Shown here in pieces: positions 6,308 through 16,653 of a DNA stretch of 38,478 nt. The notes under the pieces were generated by a model, which did no database searches, had not been told where the DNA came from, and saw only the letters and a program-made list of their open reading frames with translations. This DNA comes from a virus. Every line of letters begins with the position of its first letter. Position 1 is the stretch's first letter. Location of the stretch: IMG/VR virus record IMGVR_UViG_3300027337_000007, positions 1-38,478 of that record, one strand, 5' to 3'. The position numbers and the translations under genes were made by a program.

Positions 6308-7324
6308 TTAAAGCAAAGACCCTTGCTCGGCAGTTTCTGCAAAGCGCTTGTCAGCCAGTTCGAGATTGATCTTCGCCTGCTTGAAGTAGCTGTCTTTCAG
6401 TTCAATACCGATTGCCTTACGGCCAAGTGATACCGGGCTGTAAACCTCGGAACCAACGCCCATAAACGGAGTTAGCACGACCTCGCCAGGGTTTGAATAC
6501 AGTTCGATGATTCGATCAATAACATCGAGCTGCAAAGGGTGAACGTGCTTCTCGTCGTCCTCTTCGCGGCTGTCACGAAACGGCAGAACATTGTCGATAC
6601 GGATGTCATCCCAAACGCTAGACGCGTAACGCTGCCAGATATAGTGCGACAGCTTGTTTGACTTCGGATCATCGTGGTCGGCATACATTGCGTTCAGCGT
6701 TGACCATAGCTGATCAGCGTTTAGCTCTGATTCGTTGGCGTTGTTCCATGCCTGTAAGATGTTTGGCAGAATCGGAGTCTCGCCGAAATACTTCTTCAGC
6801 CCGCACGGGTGCGTCACCGGCACGGCGTTGTCTCCCTTCTTGGTAAGGATAAGCACATAGTCAGGCATTGCTGTGAAGCATTGCGTTGAGTCCTCCACGA
6901 TCAGCTTATGCATCAGGCTTTTGACCATCGTGCGCATTCGAACTTTCAGCGGCTCTTTCCAAATAGTGATTCGGTTACGGTACTGGAAACCGTATTTTTC
7001 GTGAATGCGGATAATTTCATGAGGAAAGTCCCACAGGTAGCACGAGTTGTCGAAAACATCGGTGCAATGCACAGCCGTAATGCGGCCAGGTTTTGTTACA
7101 CGGGAAATCTCGCGAACCAAGAACTCGTACTGTTCAAGGAACTGTTCTTTAGATTCGCAGTTGCTGAAGTCGCGCTCGCTGCTGCTGTAATTGTAAAGGC
7201 CTGCAAACGGCGGGCTATACACAGACAAGTCAATTGATTCGTCTGGCAGTGTAGGCAATACCTCCATGCAGTCGCTATTGTAAATGGCGTAGTTGCTGGC
7301 GATAACTTGTTCTTTTGCGCTCAT
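6308..7324 (-). CDS. N4-cytosine/N6-adenine DNA methyltransferase (beta-type motif order)
   Basis: The catalytic tetrapeptide SPPF is at 37-40 and the SAM-binding motif FMGVGSE is at 287-293, so motif IV precedes motif I as in beta-class amino-methyltransferases. SPP[YFW] is more typical of N4-cytosine enzymes, but N6 activity cannot be excluded. The length of 338 residues is normal. The start overlaps the helicase stop as ATGA (7321-7324), so the methylase and helicase are probably made in a fixed ratio. No restriction endonuclease gene is present nearby, which fits a protective or regulatory methylase. Confidence 0.85.
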   Translation of the reverse strand: MSAKEQVIASNYAIYNSDCMEVLPTLPDESIDLSVYSPPFAGLYNYSSSERDFSNCESKEQFLEQYEFLVREISRVTKPGRITAVHCTDVFDNSCYLWDFPHEIIRIHEKYGFQYRNRITIWKEPLKVRMRTMVKSLMHKLIVEDSTQCFTAMPDYVLILTKKGDNAVPVTHPCGLKKYFGETPILPNILQAWNNANESELNADQLWSTLNAMYADHDDPKSNKLSHYIWQRYASSVWDDIRIDNVLPFRDSREEDDEKHVHPLQLDVIDRIIELYSNPGEVVLTPFMGVGSEVYSPVSLGRKAIGIELKDSYFKQAKINLELADKRFAETAEQGSLL

Positions 7325-8694
7325 GATAAAAATCCTGGTAGTTTGACGGCCTTGTCGAAGGCCTTTGTTGTATGCGAGAAGTCGCGGTTTGCATTTGCCA
7401 CGAGGTTTGAATACAACTCGATGGCCTTTTGTGTTTTCTGTTCAAGCGCTTCCATTACGCGCTCCTGGCCTTCGCTGATCACCATGTCGCATGTCACCGC
7501 GTTCTGCTGACCAAAGCGCCAGAATCGGCGTATCGCTTGGTAATACTGCTCGTAGCTCCAGGTCGGGAAGTAAACCGTGTGATTGCAGTGCTGCCAGTTC
7601 AGGCCCATCGAGGTCATCTTGGCTTTGGTTATCAACCGCTTGATTTCGCCATTGGCAAAAGCAATCAGCAACTCCTCTTTTTTGTCGATGCTCATACCGC
7701 CAATAATCTCGACAGCACTTGGATCTAACTCAGAAAGTAGACTTGATTCATCATTCAAGTTGCACCAGTAAACAGAGGTCTTGCCGCTGGCAAGCGCAAC
7801 GGCCTGCTCGCACCGCTTCACGACAGTTAGTTTCTGTTCCTCGCGAACCTCCGTCATGGTCTTTGCTGGCATAGCAAATAGCGAAGCCTGGCCATCAATA
7901 CACCATGTAGCGTCATTGTTAACCGTGTGCTTATTGGTATGCAGCGGCGGCAAATCATAACCGTCGTTGCTAAACCCAAGATCAGACGGGCGCTTGACCA
8001 TGATCGACCACTGATTAACCCATGCAAAGAAGTCGCGCTCGGCATGTGGCTTAAGATAGAACTTCTCACCGATGTTGCGGTTATTTGAGTCAACGCTGTT
8101 CTGGTTCGACTTAAAGAACTTGCCTAGCATGTCCATGTAGCCCATGTAGCCCAATGCCTCTGAGCTATTTCCAAGCTCAATAAAGTCATTCGGCGATGGG
8201 GTGGCGGTTGAAAGCAATCGATACGGCACGCGCTTGATGAAGGCGAGAATCTCGTCCTTCGTCTTGCCCGCGAAGTTTTTCAGGATGCTGGACTCGTCAA
8301 GCATGACGCCAGCGAAGTCGTCAGGGTTAAGCAAGTGCAGACGCTCATAATTGCAGACGACGATCTTTTTAGTGAACTTACCGTCTTTGCTGTGCTCAAT
8401 GTCATCAATGCCGATGCGTTCAGCCTCTTTAATAAACTGAAACGCAACGGCAAGCGGCGTCAGAATCAGCACCGGCCTATTGGTGTGCATAACGATATTC
8501 ATCGCGACAGACAGCTGGATTAAGGTTTTGCCAAGGCCGGTATCAGCAAAAACACCGATACGGCCTTTGCGAACAGCGCGTGTGATTATTTCCTGCTGAA
8601 AATCAAACGCGCCATTCGGAATCCAGTTCGCCGCAAATCCAAAGTCGCCAGTGCTGTGGCGTTTGGATTGCAGAAACTCTGAATATTCAGACAT
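7321..8694 (-). CDS. SF2 (SNF2-like) DNA helicase/translocase
   Basis: An ATP-dependent helicase or translocase core is visible: Walker A DTGLGKT near residues 51-57, motif Ia LILTPLAVAFQF, motif II LDESS in place of DEAH, motif III STATPSPND, and motif VI QAIRRFWRFGQ near residue 400. The length of 457 residues holds both RecA-like lobes and little else. I use ATG at 8694, which overlaps the upstream stop (TGATG); a TTG one codon earlier is open. It is coupled to the N-methyltransferase. Such helicase-methylase pairs occur in other phages and prophages, but their joint role is not settled. Confidence 0.85.
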   Translation of the reverse strand: MSEYSEFLQSKRHSTGDFGFAANWIPNGAFDFQQEIITRAVRKGRIGVFADTGLGKTLIQLSVAMNIVMHTNRPVLILTPLAVAFQFIKEAERIGIDDIEHSKDGKFTKKIVVCNYERLHLLNPDDFAGVMLDESSILKNFAGKTKDEILAFIKRVPYRLLSTATPSPNDFIELGNSSEALGYMGYMDMLGKFFKSNQNSVDSNNRNIGEKFYLKPHAERDFFAWVNQWSIMVKRPSDLGFSNDGYDLPPLHTNKHTVNNDATWCIDGQASLFAMPAKTMTEVREEQKLTVVKRCEQAVALASGKTSVYWCNLNDESSLLSELDPSAVEIIGGMSIDKKEELLIAFANGEIKRLITKAKMTSMGLNWQHCNHTVYFPTWSYEQYYQAIRRFWRFGQQNAVTCDMVISEGQERVMEALEQKTQKAIELYSNLVANANRDFSHTTKAFDKAVKLPGFLS

Positions 8695-9029
8695 CAAACC
8701 ACCCCCATCGCCGCGCAGCCAATGACGCCGAACAGCAGGATCATCACTACTGCCCAGACGACGAAATAGGTAATAGCCGCTGACAGCTCACCCGTATGCA
8801 GCGGAAAGAACTTCGCATCAGGATTGGTCAGCCGATCCTCATACACGCGATTGACCATCGCTGGCACGAGAAAGAAAAACGGCAGCATAAATAATCCGGC
8901 GACAGGCACCAGTGACAATAAAAACACAAGGAAAATCCAGCCAGCCAACGCAGCATCGCCGCGCAGTAATACTGGAATGGGGCCGAACAGCATGGTGGTT
9001 ACCGAAAAACCGCGTGGTGGGGTTTGCAT
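8694..9029 (-). CDS. Membrane protein with three predicted spans
   Basis: The 111-residue product opens with FSVTTMLFGPIPVLLRGD, a motif seen in small bacterial and phage membrane proteins of the DUF2628-like type. Hydrophobic segments follow at about residues 28-62 (two closely spaced spans) and 85-111. The C-terminus is inside a membrane segment. AGGAG lies nine bases before the ATG, a strong ribosome-binding site within the early operon. The function is unknown. Superinfection exclusion or membrane modification are possible roles, without direct evidence. Confidence 0.7.
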   Translation of the reverse strand: MQTPPRGFSVTTMLFGPIPVLLRGDAALAGWIFLVFLLSLVPVAGLFMLPFFFLVPAMVNRVYEDRLTNPDAKFFPLHTGELSAAITYFVVWAVVMILLFGVIGCAAMGVV

Positions 9030-11275: not shown

Positions 11276-11449
11276 ATGCTGACCATCGAACAAATCCGAA
11301 AACGGATGCAAGACCGTAACATCAAGGCCGTGGCGGAGGCCATTGGCGTTCACCAGCAATCGCTTTACCGAATCATGGCAGGCAGTGAACCGAGTTACCG
11401 AGTGCTGAAACTCCTGAGTGATTATCTGGAGGAAACATGCAGGCTCTAA
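11276..11449 (+). CDS. Small Cro/CI-type helix-turn-helix regulator
   Basis: The 57-residue protein is little more than one DNA-binding domain. The helix-turn-helix is AVAEAIGVHQQSLYRIMAGS at about residues 18-37, followed by a helix (RVLKLLSDYLEE). AAGAGG precedes the ATG at 11276; the longer frame to 11183 crosses the operator and is not used. It faces the divergent palindrome, which is its most likely target. No full-length repressor with a dimerisation domain is found, so it probably acts as a Cro-like early switch. It overlaps the helicase gene by 13 bases. Confidence 0.82.
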   Translation: MLTIEQIRKRMQDRNIKAVAEAIGVHQQSLYRIMAGSEPSYRVLKLLSDYLEETCRL

Positions 11450-12921
11450 AGCTCTTTGACGACCAAGCCGAGTTTGTGGAAAAAATCCGTGAGCAGCTAC
11501 GCGCCGGTCACAAATCAATTTTAGGCGTTGCATCGCCCGCGTTTGGTAAAACCGTCGTGGCCGGTCACATCATTGCCAGCGCACGCGCACGATCTGACGC
11601 GTCGGCATGGTTCCTCGTGCATCGTAAGAACCTGCTTCGGCAAACCAGCAAATCATTCTGGGACTCTAAAATTGAGCATGGACTGCTAACCAGTGGCCGC
11701 ACGCGCACGCTGCAACCAATTCAAGTCGGCACGATTGGCACGGTTTACAGTCGCCTGAAAACGCTTAAGGCTCCGACCATTCTGTTCATTGATGAGGCGC
11801 ACCTATCATGCGGCAACATGTTCACTAAGGTTATTGAGTGGGCATTGGCGCAAGGTGCGATCGTCATCGGTTTGACCGGCACGCCCATACGATTGGACGG
11901 TAAGGCGCTGGGCAACCTTTACCAAGTCATGGTTGAGGCGCGCCCCACATCATGGCTGATCGAGCAGGGCAGACTTTCGCGCTACAAGTATTTTGCCGCG
12001 CCACATGCGCCTGACTTGTCAGGCATTAAAAAACAGGATGGCGACTACAACCGCGAGCAGCTTGCCGAGGTTATGGGTAAGCGCGTCATCACAGGAGATG
12101 CGATTGCTCATTGGCGCCAATATGCAAATGGACTGCGAACGGTTATCTACTGCTGCAACGTGAAGCACTCTAAGCTAACCGCACAAGCATTTAATGACGC
12201 TGGTATCCCGACGGTGCATGTTGACGCCGACACGACCGAGGCAGAACTTAAAGACGCGTGCGAAGGGCTGGCTTCAGGAAAATATCTAGCGATTTGTAAC
12301 TGCGAATTGGTCATCGAGGGATTCGACCTCGCCATGCAGTCGGGCAAAGACATCACGCTGGATTGCTGCATTTTGCTTAGGCCGACGCAATCAATCGCTC
12401 GTTACCTTCAGATGGTGTTTCGCGCACTACGGCGCAAGCCTAAGCCAGCGATCATTCTAGACCACGCCGGATGCGCGTTGCAGCATGGTTTTCCAGACGA
12501 CCACCGCGAATGGTCACTCGAAGGCGAAACCAAACAGCAGCGCAAGAAACGCGAGGATGAGGTCAAGGCTAAGCAGTGTGACAAGTGCTATGCCGTGTTC
12601 ACACCAGGTCCGTCACACTGCCCACAATGCGGAGAGTCGCTAGCCGGTGATGGCCGCAAGATTGAGATTGTCGAAGGCAACCTAGTTGAAATTGACATCG
12701 AGGCCATGCGCCGTGAGCAGAAACGCGAACAGGGATCGGCGCGGACGCTGACGGATCTGGTTGCGCTTGGATTGCGTCGTGGAATCAAGAAACCCGCAGA
12801 ATGGGCAGCATTTACATACGCCGCTCGGCAAGGTGGGCGTAAGCCAACAAAAGATGAGTTCAAGCAAGCCCGTGACGCGCTGGAAACTTTACAACCAATA
12901 TGGGGAGTCGCTCATGCGTGA
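11437..12921 (+). CDS. DEAH-box SF2 helicase with C-terminal zinc ribbon
   Basis: The predicted replication or recombination helicase has Walker A SPAFGKT (33-39), motif II DEAH (119-122), motif III LTGTP (146-150) and a motif VI region QMVFRALRR (325-333) in which the usual GR is FR. The second RecA lobe is intact. Downstream, C381, C384, C395 and C398 form a C-x2-C-x10-C-x2-C zinc ribbon, followed by a basic helical tail. The length of 494 residues is typical of phage UvsW/RadA-like DEAD helicases found next to VRR-NUC genes. It is translationally linked to both neighbours by short overlaps. Confidence 0.88.
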   Translation: MQALKLFDDQAEFVEKIREQLRAGHKSILGVASPAFGKTVVAGHIIASARARSDASAWFLVHRKNLLRQTSKSFWDSKIEHGLLTSGRTRTLQPIQVGTIGTVYSRLKTLKAPTILFIDEAHLSCGNMFTKVIEWALAQGAIVIGLTGTPIRLDGKALGNLYQVMVEARPTSWLIEQGRLSRYKYFAAPHAPDLSGIKKQDGDYNREQLAEVMGKRVITGDAIAHWRQYANGLRTVIYCCNVKHSKLTAQAFNDAGIPTVHVDADTTEAELKDACEGLASGKYLAICNCELVIEGFDLAMQSGKDITLDCCILLRPTQSIARYLQMVFRALRRKPKPAIILDHAGCALQHGFPDDHREWSLEGETKQQRKKREDEVKAKQCDKCYAVFTPGPSHCPQCGESLAGDGRKIEIVEGNLVEIDIEAMRREQKREQGSARTLTDLVALGLRRGIKKPAEWAAFTYAARQGGRKPTKDEFKQARDALETLQPIWGVAHA

Positions 12922-13273
12922 ATCAGACATTCAGAACCTAATCATGCTCGCGTTATCGCAGGCGGGCTGCACCGTTTGGCGCAACAACGTCGGAACAGGA
13001 TGGCAGGGCAAGATGAGCCGCACTCGCACGGGTTCAATCATCATTGATGAGCCACGCCCACTGCACGCCGGACTATGCGTCGGTAGCTCGGACATTATCG
13101 GGATCGCGCCCGATGGCCGGTTCCTCGCCGTAGAAGTCAAAACCGCAACCGGAAAACCAACGCAAGAACAGATCCGATTTATCGAAGCCGTGCGTAATCG
13201 TGGTGGCATCGCGGGCGTTTGCCGGTCGGTTCAGGATGCTTTAGAGTTACTGGCCGAGCAGAATCTCGGATAA
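12914..13273 (+). CDS. VRR-NUC domain nuclease
   Basis: The 119-residue PD-(D/E)XK nuclease shows the VRR-NUC signature: GSSDIIGIAPDGRFLAVEVK, with catalytic D in SDIIG and E-x-K in VEVK, then TGKPTQEQIRFIEAVRNRGG and the C-terminal strand GVCRSVQDALELL. This family cuts branched or structured DNA. The start at 12914 overlaps the helicase stop by 8 bases; the much longer open frame upstream is a shadow of the helicase gene. Stand-alone copies next to an SF2 helicase are common in phage replication modules, suggesting the two work together. Confidence 0.88.
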   Translation: MRESDIQNLIMLALSQAGCTVWRNNVGTGWQGKMSRTRTGSIIIDEPRPLHAGLCVGSSDIIGIAPDGRFLAVEVKTATGKPTQEQIRFIEAVRNRGGIAGVCRSVQDALELLAEQNLG

Positions 13274-13494: not shown

Positions 13495-15821
13495 GTAACT
13501 TCCCCCCCGAACTATGCCAACTACCCCAATGGCTTGTCTGGCGCTTTGAATCCAGCGACACCAGTACCAAGCCGCGCAAGGTTCCTTACTACGTCAATGG
13601 CAAGCGGCGAACAGGCACGCAAGGGTCAGACACAGACCGCGCAAGCCTAGTGACATGCGACATTGCTAGCGATGCCGTAGCGTCAGGACAATTTGACGGC
13701 ACGGGCTTTGCGTTCCTGCCTGGCGACGGATTGATTGGAATTGACCTTGATGGTTGCTTCAATACCGATGACAACGAGCGACATGCGCGCGCACTCAAGA
13801 TCATTGATGCGTGCCAGTCATTCACTGAGATCAGCCCCAGCGGTAACGGCGTTCACATCATCGTCAAGGGCGAAACGCAGACGTTCAAATCCAATGAGCT
13901 AGGCATCGAGGTATTCTGCGGGCGTCAGTTCTTTACGATGACCGGCAAGCTGCGCGCCGGTTCGCCTATGACAGTCAATCCGATTGCGCCAAGCGTGCTG
14001 GATAAACTCCGGCGCACAGTCAAGGGTGACGATGCCAAGCAGCAGCCGATGCCTTCACGCCCGGTATTTCGCGACGGTGAACCGCCTTCAATCGCCAAAA
14101 TCGAATCGGCGCTGGCATTTATCAGCCCTGACTGCGGCTACGACGAATGGATCCGCGTCGGCATGGGATTGCACAATGAGCTAGGCGATTCTGGCTTAGG
14201 CGTTTGGAACTACTGGTCAGGGCGCGGGCAAAGCTACCCTGGCGAGAAAGAACTGGCCTCACACTGGCGATCATTTAAGCCTGGCAGCATAACCATTGCC
14301 ACGGTGTTTAAGATGGCAACAGACGCAGGGTGGAGGCCGCCACGCCCCATGACTCCGCCGCCGATGCCAAACAATGAGCCAAGGCGCGCACCCGATGGCA
14401 TCGTTGATCAGGAAACCGGCGAGATCGTTCCTTTCACGCCAGGCGACCCGCGAACGTTTATTGACCCCAAAGCGCCGTATGACGTGGCCAAGGTCTACAT
14501 CGAGCAAGGCCACATGATCGGCCAAACCGAAACGCTACACTACTGGCGCGGTGACTGGTACATCTGGAATGGCATCCACTATATGGCCATTGATGAGGAT
14601 CGTGTTAGGTCGGAGCTATATCGCTGGCTGTCCACCACATGGAACATCGTCAAGCAGATGGATGAGCCCGTACAGCCAAACATGAAACTCGTGGCAGAGG
14701 TCTATTCGGCGCTCAAGGCCATTCGCCTGATTCAAGTCGATGAGCCGCCAACGTGGATTCACCCGCCCGCCGATGGATGCCCAGCCAGCGACATTATCCC
14801 ATGCTGGAACGGGTTCCTGCGCATAAGCACCCGCAAGCTAGAACCGGCACGTCCTGAGCTATTTGTGACCGCCGCGCTCGCGTTTGACGCCAAGGAAAAC
14901 CCGTCGGCGCCCGCTGAGTGGATGGCATTCATTGACCGAATCTGGCAGGGCGATAAGGAAACACAGCAGGCGCTTGCTGAGGCGTTCGGCTACATGCTGA
15001 CCGACTTTACCGATCAGCAGAAAATGTTCCTGCTATGCGGTGCCAAGCGTTCAGGTAAGGGTACGCTGCTTCGCATCCTATCCTCGCTGGTCGGCAAGCA
15101 AAACACCGTCAGCCCTTCGCTGTCGTCTATCGGTACGCAGTTCGGCTTGCAACCTTTAATCGGTAAACGCGTCGCAATGATATCTGACGCTCGTCTATCG
15201 CATAAGGCAGACCAAGCCGCGATTACTGAAAACATCCTCCGCATTACCGGCGAAGATGACGTTTCAATCGAGCGGAAATATAAGGAATCATGGCAGGGTA
15301 AATTGCCCACGCGATTTATTATGGCCAGTAATGAGCCGCCTAATTTCTCGGACGCATCAGCGGCAATTACTAGCCGTATGATTATATTTCACTTTGTGAA
15401 ATCATTTTATGGAAAAGAGGATTTTACATTAACCGAACGGCTTGAAACTGAACTGCCTGGCATCCTCATGTGGGCGCTTGATGGACTTGTATCCATGCGA
15501 AAACGCGGGCGACTTATACAGCCTAAATCCGGCATGGTGCTGTCGTCTGAAATGGAGGAAATGACAAGCCCAATCACAGCGTTTGTTGAAGATTGCTGCA
15601 TCATGGAACCGACCGCACGGGTTTCAAAACAGGATCTATTTGATCGCTGGCGTGACTGGTGCGACGCGCAAGGGCGTGATCACCCTGGCAGTCAGGCCAT
15701 GTTTGGGCGTCAATTTAACGCGGCGCATCCTGAAATACAGACCGAGCATAGTCGTTTGAGTGGCGTCAGGCAGCGAACATACGTCGGCGTCAGAATCAGA
15801 CGATCGTCGGATATTGTCTGA
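13491..15821 (+). CDS. Primase-helicase (AEP-like primase, PriCT, D5/SF3 helicase)
   Basis: The 776-residue multidomain replication protein starts with an archaeo-eukaryotic-type primase-like part, with metal-binding GIDLDG at 83-88, SPSGNGVHIIVKG at 115-127 and GIEVFCGRQFFTMTG at 138-152. A PriCT-like helical region follows (about 200-282, GYDEWIRVGMGLHNELG). The C-terminal half is a D5/SF3 helicase with Walker A GAKRSGKGT at 517-525, a B-type motif RVAMISDA and sensor-like FIMASNEPPNF. A winged-helix-like end contains DLFDRWRDWCDAQG. The protein resembles the phage P4 alpha type, which primes and unwinds at a phage origin. The iteron region immediately downstream is the likely substrate. 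Confidence 0.9.
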   Translation: MSNFPPELCQLPQWLVWRFESSDTSTKPRKVPYYVNGKRRTGTQGSDTDRASLVTCDIASDAVASGQFDGTGFAFLPGDGLIGIDLDGCFNTDDNERHARALKIIDACQSFTEISPSGNGVHIIVKGETQTFKSNELGIEVFCGRQFFTMTGKLRAGSPMTVNPIAPSVLDKLRRTVKGDDAKQQPMPSRPVFRDGEPPSIAKIESALAFISPDCGYDEWIRVGMGLHNELGDSGLGVWNYWSGRGQSYPGEKELASHWRSFKPGSITIATVFKMATDAGWRPPRPMTPPPMPNNEPRRAPDGIVDQETGEIVPFTPGDPRTFIDPKAPYDVAKVYIEQGHMIGQTETLHYWRGDWYIWNGIHYMAIDEDRVRSELYRWLSTTWNIVKQMDEPVQPNMKLVAEVYSALKAIRLIQVDEPPTWIHPPADGCPASDIIPCWNGFLRISTRKLEPARPELFVTAALAFDAKENPSAPAEWMAFIDRIWQGDKETQQALAEAFGYMLTDFTDQQKMFLLCGAKRSGKGTLLRILSSLVGKQNTVSPSLSSIGTQFGLQPLIGKRVAMISDARLSHKADQAAITENILRITGEDDVSIERKYKESWQGKLPTRFIMASNEPPNFSDASAAITSRMIIFHFVKSFYGKEDFTLTERLETELPGILMWALDGLVSMRKRGRLIQPKSGMVLSSEMEEMTSPITAFVEDCCIMEPTARVSKQDLFDRWRDWCDAQGRDHPGSQAMFGRQFNAAHPEIQTEHSRLSGVRQRTYVGVRIRRSSDIV

Positions 15822-15824
15822 GCC

Positions 15825-15833
15825 TGTGGATAA
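15825..15833 (-). promoter_or_regulatory. Perfect DnaA box
   Basis: TGTGGATAA on the plus strand is the reverse complement of the consensus DnaA box TTATCCACA. It starts four bases after the primase-helicase stop codon and two bases before the first iteron. This suggests that host DnaA takes part in opening the phage origin. Confidence 0.7.
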
Positions 15834-15834
15834 G

Positions 15835-15949
15835 TGGCACAGGTAAAGCAGGGTGGCACAGGTAGTGGCACATGCAAAAAAGTTTCACATGTGCCAGCGC
15901 AGCCCTAGTGCCGCAAGGGTTTCAGCGGGTGGCACAGGTTGGCACAGGT
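15835..15949 (+). repeat. Left iteron cluster (TGGCACAGGT)
   Basis: Exact copies of TGGCACAGGT lie at 15835-15844, 15854-15863, 15930-15939 and 15940-15949, the last two being directly adjacent. A variant TGGCACATG (15866-15874) pairs with CATGTGCCA (15888-15896) as a 9-bp inverted repeat around a 13-base A-rich loop. Spacing of the first two copies is 19 bp. Confidence 0.85.
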
Positions 15950-15980
15950 AAAATTGAAAAGTATTACATATAGAGAAAAT

Positions 15981-16004
15981 ATATTAGTACTAAAGTACCA
16001 ATAT
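15981..16004. repeat. Inverted repeat in the A+T-rich core
   Basis: ATATTAGTACT (15981-15991) and AGTACCAATAT (15994-16004) are inverted copies with one mismatch and only two bases between them. They sit in the middle of the A+T-rich segment. This could be an unwinding site or the binding site of a dimeric protein. Confidence 0.6.
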
Positions 16005-16025
16005 ATACATAGTGGAGATAACAAT

Positions 16026-16088
16026 ATGAATTTTGCCTGTGCCACCTGTGCCACTTGGACGCAAACCCAGCAACGGCGCGGGTTGTAG
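16026..16088 (+). CDS. Possible 20-residue leader peptide inside the origin
   Basis: A tiny frame begins with ATG preceded by GGAG (GTGGAGATAACAATATG) and ends at TAG. It reads MNFACATCATWTQTQQRRGL, with the repeated ACATCAT encoded by two overlapping iterons. The ribosome site and AT-rich promoter-like DNA upstream make translation possible. Its coincidence with the repeats makes a chance frame about as likely. Confidence 0.25.
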   Translation: MNFACATCATWTQTQQRRGL

Positions 16089-16130
16089 CTGGCACAGGTG
16101 AAAATTTAACCTGTGCCACCTCCTGTGCCA
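16035..16130 (-). repeat. Right iteron cluster (mostly inverted orientation)
   Basis: Inverted copies of the 10-mer (ACCTGTGCCA or one-base variants) lie at 16035-16044, 16044-16053, 16109-16118 and 16121-16130. One forward copy is at 16090-16099. The forward copy at 16090 and the inverted copy at 16109 form a perfect 10-bp dyad around a 9-base A+T-rich centre (gaaaattta). The right cluster thus mirrors the left one across the A+T-rich core. Confidence 0.85.
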
Positions 16131-16131
16131 C

Positions 16132-16157
16132 TTGAAAACATAAAAAAATGCTACAAT
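16132..16157 (+). promoter_or_regulatory. Promoter of the terminase genes (extended -10)
   Basis: TGC-TACAAT has the -10 hexamer at 16152-16157 and is preceded by an A-run. TTGAAA is at 16132-16137, but the 14-base spacing is short, so the extended -10 probably dominates. The start codon of the small terminase lies about 50 bases downstream. The last inverted iteron ends at 16130, two bases before this promoter, so iteron-bound protein could repress or activate late transcription. Confidence 0.6.
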
Positions 16158-16209: not shown

Positions 16210-16653
16210 GTGGAAAAACAGATCGGGAGACCGACCGCATACAAACCAGAGTACGATCAGATTGCATTCAGCATGGCGCTACTTGGCGCAACCGATGCTG
16301 ACCTTGCCGATTGCTTCAGCGTAACTGAGCAGACAATCAACAACTGGAAGCACGCGCAACCATCGTTTTTTGAGTCCCTAAAGCAAGGCAAGATGCAAGC
16401 CGATGCTAAAGTGGCGAATCGGTTATATGCACGCGCTCTTGGTTATGAGCATGATGATGTGGATATTCGCGTATGTGACGGCACTATTGCCATGACTCCG
16501 GTTCGCAAGTATTACCCGCCCGACACAACCGCCTGTATATTCTGGCTCAAGAATCGACAGCCGACTAAATGGCGCGATAAAACCGAAGTCGTGGCCGAGT
16601 CGGAATCATTGGCAGAGGTATTATCTAAAATTGCCAGCGGCCTGCCGAATTAA
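16210..16653 (+). CDS. terS: Terminase small subunit
   Basis: This DNA-recognition subunit of the packaging motor has 147 residues. It begins MEKQIGRPTAYKPEYDQIAF and has a helix-turn-helix region ATDADLADCFSVTEQTINNW at about 27-46. The oligomerisation part includes DAKVANRLYARALGYEHDDV, and the motif DTTACIFWLKNRQPTKWRDK at about 105-124 is typical of this family. The start is GTG with AGAGGA upstream. The stop overlaps the large-subunit start (TAATG), the usual coupling. Confidence 0.92.
   Translation: MEKQIGRPTAYKPEYDQIAFSMALLGATDADLADCFSVTEQTINNWKHAQPSFFESLKQGKMQADAKVANRLYARALGYEHDDVDIRVCDGTIAMTPVRKYYPPDTTACIFWLKNRQPTKWRDKTEVVAESESLAEVLSKIASGLPN

Follow-up and report, generated by a model that had tools for sequence, protein, structure and literature searches.

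A candidate phage replication origin of mirrored iterons, very probably read by the winged helix of the upstream primase-helicase

Immediately after the stop codon of a phage primase-helicase gene, an array of short repeats in facing clusters raises two questions: what the array is for, and which protein reads it. We propose that positions 15825–16130 of the window (the whole stretch of 38,478 bases analysed here) form a replication origin of the SaPI type, in which a self-loading helicase starts replication, and that its iterons are read by the winged helix of the primase-helicase encoded upstream. We would put the probability of this reading, which is built on sequence comparison, at a little under nine in ten.

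The iteron array and its surroundings

A word search of the window finds 11 TGGCACA heptamers within positions 15835–16130. Seven of the 11 belong to exact copies of the 10-mer TGGCACAGGT (starting at 15835, 15854, 15930, 15940 and 16090 in forward orientation, and at 16044 and 16109 inverted), and the remaining four are heptamer-only copies (15866 forward; 15887, 16035 and 16121 inverted). The exact 10-mer occurs nowhere in the 38,478 bases outside this interval. With up to one mismatch allowed, 15 matches are found window-wide, compared with 2.4 ± 1.5 in shuffled sequence (maximum 7), and 10 of the 15 fall inside the array. The first iteron begins 14 bases past the primase-helicase stop.

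The array is arranged as a mirror, with five forward heptamers to the left of an A+T-rich core and four inverted ones to its right. This arrangement is obeyed by 9 of the 11 copies, the exceptions being an inverted copy on the left side (15887) and a forward copy on the right (16090), and the best mirrored heptamer scores 9 here versus a mean of 2.1 and a maximum of 3 in dinucleotide shuffles of the region. The first-pass annotation, which had claimed at least nine repeats, was right on that point; its count of four forward copies on the left becomes five, plus one inverted. The core has an inverted repeat of its own, as had also been described, with arms at 15979–15991 and 15994–16006 that are 92% complementary; folding of the core as single-stranded DNA is modest (z −2.1) and the hairpin weak. 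The coordinates are collected in Table 1.

Table 1. Features of the proposed origin and of the gene upstream (window coordinates)
Feature	Position	Strand	Basis
Primase-helicase, 776 aa	13491–15821	+	domain, profile and fold matches
Winged-helix codons, residues 704–769, proposed iteron reader	15600–15797	+	model pLDDT ~80–90, RFX matches, covariation
Covarying residue Q741	15711–15713	+	covariation; recognition helix in model
Covarying residue H753	15747–15749	+	covariation; wing strand in model
Covarying residue R760	15768–15770	+	covariation; wing strand in model
Perfect DnaA box TTATCCACA, role doubtful	15825–15833	−	motif search
Iteron TGGCACAGGT, outer left	15835–15844	+	word search
Iteron TGGCACAGGT, outer left	15854–15863	+	word search
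Variant iteron TGGCACATGC, left	15866–15875	+	word search
Variant iteron TGGCACATGT, inverted copy inside left cluster	15887–15896	−	word search
Inner left pair, two TGGCACAGGT, 10 bp apart	15930–15949	+	word search
A+T-rich core, putative unwinding region; contains inverted repeat	15950–16034		sequence reading
Inner right pair (TGGCACAGGC, TGGCACAGGT), 9 bp apart	16035–16053	−	word search
Iteron TGGCACAGGT, forward copy inside right cluster	16090–16099	+	word search
Outer right iterons (TGGCACAGGT, TGGCACAGGA), 12 bp apart	16109–16130	−	word search

Several other signals were looked at around the array. It had been suggested that cumulative GC skew should reach a minimum here; the minimum lies at about 10.5–11 kb, not at 16 kb, and since it coincides with a switch of gene direction we rejected GC skew as an origin marker: it is uninformative and lends the proposed origin no support. 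A terminator scan gave a single weak candidate where the terminase gene begins, a hit that chance could account for. A 20-codon ORF (MNFACATCATWTQTQQRRGL) at 16026–16088 on the forward strand, with GGAG at 16014–16017, overlaps the right inner iterons, and similar ORFs are present in some relatives; a leader ORF is nevertheless unsupported, because Shine-Dalgarno-preceded starts number 15 of 64 versus 19% in controls, which is no enrichment. Around the replication module lie two SNF2/ResIII-type helicase genes on opposite strands, together with genes for a DNA methyltransferase and a VRR-NUC nuclease (window 6308–8697 and 11437–13273).

The layout in relatives and in known origins

A pattern scan for tandem words returned many viral loci, several of them with a related primase-helicase just upstream. 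Such a scan is circular for the question of layout, and loci were therefore chosen by protein similarity only; the 47 non-redundant regions analysed comprise the window, 43 of these protein-similarity loci and three loci from the pattern scan. In 39 of the 47 regions, a mirrored heptamer scores above every one of 60 shuffles; with the window and the three pattern-scan loci removed, the count is 36 of 43. Independent loci from bacterial genomes reach a score of at least 5 in 23 of 77 cases, compared with 2 of 287 control windows taken from the same loci, and 19 of 39 held-out viral loci beat all 50 shuffles; about half of the loci in the bacterial (n = 77) and held-out (n = 39) sets have no significant mirrored word. 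No significant mirrored iterons follow the more distant phage primases PS6, PM-CJR and 9NA. In the relatives, the spacing of tandem copies is most commonly 9–10 bp, as in 117 of 158 cases, and the inner copies on either side of the core are separated by a median of about 76 bp. Comparison with related viruses, which the first-pass annotation had recommended as a search for conserved repeats, thus yields a layout that recurs after the helicase gene, often with a different word.

TGGCACA is the word in most of the nearer relatives, and it also accompanies two very distant helicases, L031 and L043, at loci that were both found by word search. Elsewhere the word is TTCCGCA (L009, L132), GTCCGCG (L147), CCGCACA (L159, L174), GGTCAGG (L190), GTCCGGG (L195), CCTACGC (L201) or GTACCGC (L206), among others. 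Most words fit the form TG-NNN-C(A/G), reading forward in the left arm. Among the papers listed by a literature search, none describes the TGGCACA iteron word.

Two further observations concern the relatives. Their cores, at about +115 to +150 after the helicase stop (for example in L072, L108, L153 and L174), contain an alternating purine-pyrimidine run of 16–31 bases between the iteron clusters, mostly (CA)n with CGs, and 27 of the 47 regions have a run reached by at most 1 of 100 shuffles; possibly, the run is a Z-forming or easily unwound element. The window core has an alternating run of only 11 bases, and the A+T-rich inverted repeat instead. In L106 (1000–1700, minus strand), GGGACAGAT words occur first in one orientation and then in the other, close to where the reading frame of a distant primase-helicase ends; forward copies come first and inverted ones follow, and they may represent another class of iteron.

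Annotated phage origins provide the closest likeness. The record of Lactobacillus phage A2 has a rep_origin directly after the primase, in which ACGGGAG stands at −10, +8, +20 and +84 on one side and at +161, +169 and +237 on the other, an arrangement reached in 0 of 200 shuffles. The record of Streptococcus phage Sfi21 describes a 302-bp “origin of replication ... phage inhibitory sequence” after the primase gene, with TTAGTTA at +60 and +68 mirrored at +148 and +156 (8 of 200 shuffles); two forward and two inverted copies of TTAGTTAC flank its A+T-rich core. Both annotated origins share with the window array mirrored iterons, an A+T-rich core and a place directly behind the primase gene, and differ from it in their words (ACGGGAG and TTAGTTAC) and in their Gram-positive hosts; identity between the A2 primase and the window protein is about 27% over 65% of the query.

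In SaPI helicases, the C-terminal domain is reported to read iterons directly downstream of the gene (PMC7581432), the paper that supplies the details of SaPI origins for this comparison. SaPI Rep and SaPI5, as well as Cch2 of SCCmec, are like the window in combining a D5-type helicase (fused to a primase in SaPI5) with iterons directly downstream, and multiple iterons do lie immediately downstream of the helicase gene in the window. Unlike a SaPI, the window comes from a tailed phage that carries structural genes of its own, and its iteron word differs from the AAGTG of Cch2. The P4 alpha protein, likewise a primase-helicase-initiator, has its crr right after the alpha gene, with type 1 repeats in both directions and a word, GGTGAACAG, of the TG-NNN-C shape seen in window-type words. 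In P4, however, the annotated ori is several kb away, and the crr is a duplicated 120-bp block whose copies are without the two-arm layout of the window; P4 thus has a separate ori and crr, both with iterons, whereas the exact 10-mers of the window are all in one place.

A plasmid-like theta origin, the kind that the first-pass annotation had in view, is a different model: a Rep-type initiator and host DnaA would open the DNA, and DnaB would be loaded. RepA/DnaA plasmids do share with the window tandem iterons by an A+T-rich region near an initiator gene, and the perfect DnaA box that had been reported just after the primase-helicase stop is confirmed, starting on the fourth base after the stop codon (15819–15821). 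Against this, a perfect box is absent from the other 46 of the 47 regions, so that the conserved DnaA boxes of such plasmids are lacking; the clusters are mirrored, the protein encoded next to the array already carries a D5-type helicase, joined to a primase, no RepA-like initiator is found among the ten window proteins searched, and the nearest relatives use a self-loading helicase-initiator. We consider a plasmid-like origin very unlikely. A general role for host DnaA in opening the origin is unsupported because the box, though real, is unique to the window among these regions: to judge from this distribution, DnaA is probably dispensable for the proposed origin, and may act as a helper in the window phage alone.

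The winged helix, the iteron word and the gene downstream

The primase-helicase is composed of an N-terminal primase, PriCT_2, a DUF5906/D5-type AAA+ helicase and a C-terminal winged helix. In domain searches its C-terminus matches Pox_D5 and the RFX winged helix, and RFX5 and RFX1 match the winged helix by profile. The SaPI5 primase-helicase (7ola) is the top match both by fold (E 1e-16) and by profile (E 4.5e-25), the profile alignment running through the helicase into the first part of the winged helix but stopping short of the wing; the fold matches ranked after the 7ola chains are solved structures of other D5-type primase-helicases. An AlphaFold model of residues 345–776, built with 34 relatives, has a mean pLDDT of 89 and ends in the winged helix. 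With 7ola as top match and the winged helix at 704–769 in the model, the protein shows the make-up of the SaPI type: a D5/AAA+ helicase with homology to SaPI5 Rep, followed by a DNA-binding domain at the C-terminus.

Residues of this winged helix covary with bases of the iteron word. Among 38 cluster representatives, the strongest associations are between residue 760 and base 3, residue 741 and base 7, and residue 753 and bases 4 and 5; the model places 741 in the recognition helix, and 753 and 760 in the two wing strands. RFX proteins contact DNA largely via the wing, and Gln-adenine and Arg-guanine are the usual major-groove pairs. In 44 cluster representatives, base 3 is A in 7 of 8 cases with Gln760 and in 0 of 36 with any other residue, while base 5 is A in 23 of 24 cases with Gln753 and in 3 of 20 with other residues at this position; Fisher p-values on these combined tables ignore kinship. 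The window has His at 753, not Gln. Registers were set by hand for L190, L254, L274 and L302, and L203, L236, L241, L275 and L350 were left out by hand.

Expectations were fixed before a further scan: Gln760 should go with A, and Arg/Lys760 with G or T, at base 3; Gln741 with A, and Asp/Asn741 with G, at base 7; and Gln753 with CA at bases 4–5. Among the 10 held-out representatives with usable register, Arg760 is never paired with A at base 3, nor Gln760 with G. Base 5 is A in 4 of 4 with Gln753 and in 0 of 6 with Arg753, and one residue 741 case goes against expectation. For the 760 rule the held-out test is thin, because only one Gln760 case had A at base 3 and one had T. On a tree built from the helicase core, with the winged helix left out, the supported independent pairs stand at 5 versus 0 for 760/base 3 (p 0.0625; a small test), at 3–4 versus 0 for 753/base 5 (again a small test) and at 2 versus 0 for 741/base 7, where the association belongs mostly to one clade; mismatched residue-base controls on the same tree gave nothing consistent. 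The sister loci L301 and L302 differ both at 753 (R/Q) and at base 5 (C/A).

Iteron copies are also seen within the 3′ end of the helicase gene in L108, L152, L153, L174, L159 and their relatives, at −118 and −73 from the stop, where they encode part of the wing, TGGCACAAGATTGAA being translated as G-T-R-L-N. In L159 and L174, which have the word CCGCACA, these codons give R-T-R-L-N, so that the change of iteron and the change of protein coincide.

The covariation across relatives agrees with a C-terminal domain that would set iteron specificity, as in the SaPI type. We lean, with some reserve, towards a family-wide recognition code in which the winged helix would read the TG-NNN-C(A/G) iteron. 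At base 3, Arg760 would select G and Gln760 would select A; at base 5, Gln753 would select A, and Arg753 or Lys753 mostly C; at base 7, Gln741 would select A, and Asp741 or Asn741 would select G. This residue-base code is the new, testable part; the origin itself is of a known kind.

Two proteins had been named as possible binders of the 10-mer, and it is the primase-helicase that the evidence favours: the layout follows its gene and matches the A2 and Sfi21 origins, and the word covaries with its winged helix. The small terminase would make the array a packaging site (pac or cos) read by the protein encoded next door. Its gene does follow the array in the window, at 16210, and TerS genes also lie downstream in several relatives, but the downstream gene is a ParB-methyltransferase in L072, L156 and L174, and elsewhere a TerS of families phrog_1482, 309, 51 or 57 or an unrelated gene. 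The word is shared despite a ParB-methyltransferase (L072, L156) or a TerS of a different family (L149) downstream, and L072 and L149 have near-identical primase ends followed by different genes; the window and L009 have a TerS family in common (L009 weakly), yet their words and winged helices differ. Because the downstream gene varies while the word stays, and tracks the helicase instead, a terminase site is scarcely plausible. Hardly to be credited, too, is an operator array bound by the primase-helicase or another protein and mainly controlling late or terminase transcription: the position between early and late genes would suit it, and the outer right iteron adjoins a weak promoter-like sequence (TTGAAA at 16132, TACAAT at 16152) that had been taken for a switch between replication and late transcription, but this switch is unsupported because the promoter spacer is 14 bp, a promoter scan called no promoter, this pair included, the array stays when the downstream gene changes, and the annotated origins of A2 and Sfi21 have the same layout.

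Proposed mechanism and meaning

We take the array after the primase-helicase gene to be, very probably, an origin of replication that the protein reads with its C-terminal winged helix, a view drawn from comparison of genes and repeats. Under this proposal, the primase-helicase made from the gene immediately upstream would recognise the iterons via the winged helix, and copies of it would gather on both facing clusters, with the inner pairs at 15930–15949 and 16035–16053, the members of which are about one helical turn apart, being the most critical. As the two clusters point towards each other, one helicase ring would form on each side of the A+T-rich core, and the two would be oppositely oriented. 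The rings would melt the core and then move apart, giving a bidirectional start, and the fused primase domain would make the primers.

A likely origin is hereby placed, by computation, in an unannotated phage. The kind of origin annotated in A2 and Sfi21, and reported for SaPIs, appears to be widespread beside D5-type primase-helicases in phages, and the same kind appears also in genomes of Pseudomonadota, Planctomycetota, Actinomycetota and others. The covariation offers a way, both specific and cheap, to test how initiators of this kind select an origin. If true, the recognition code could allow protein sequence to predict the words at the origins of many phages and integrated elements. The choice of origin also has a bearing on which phages and satellites compete for one another's replication or shut it out.
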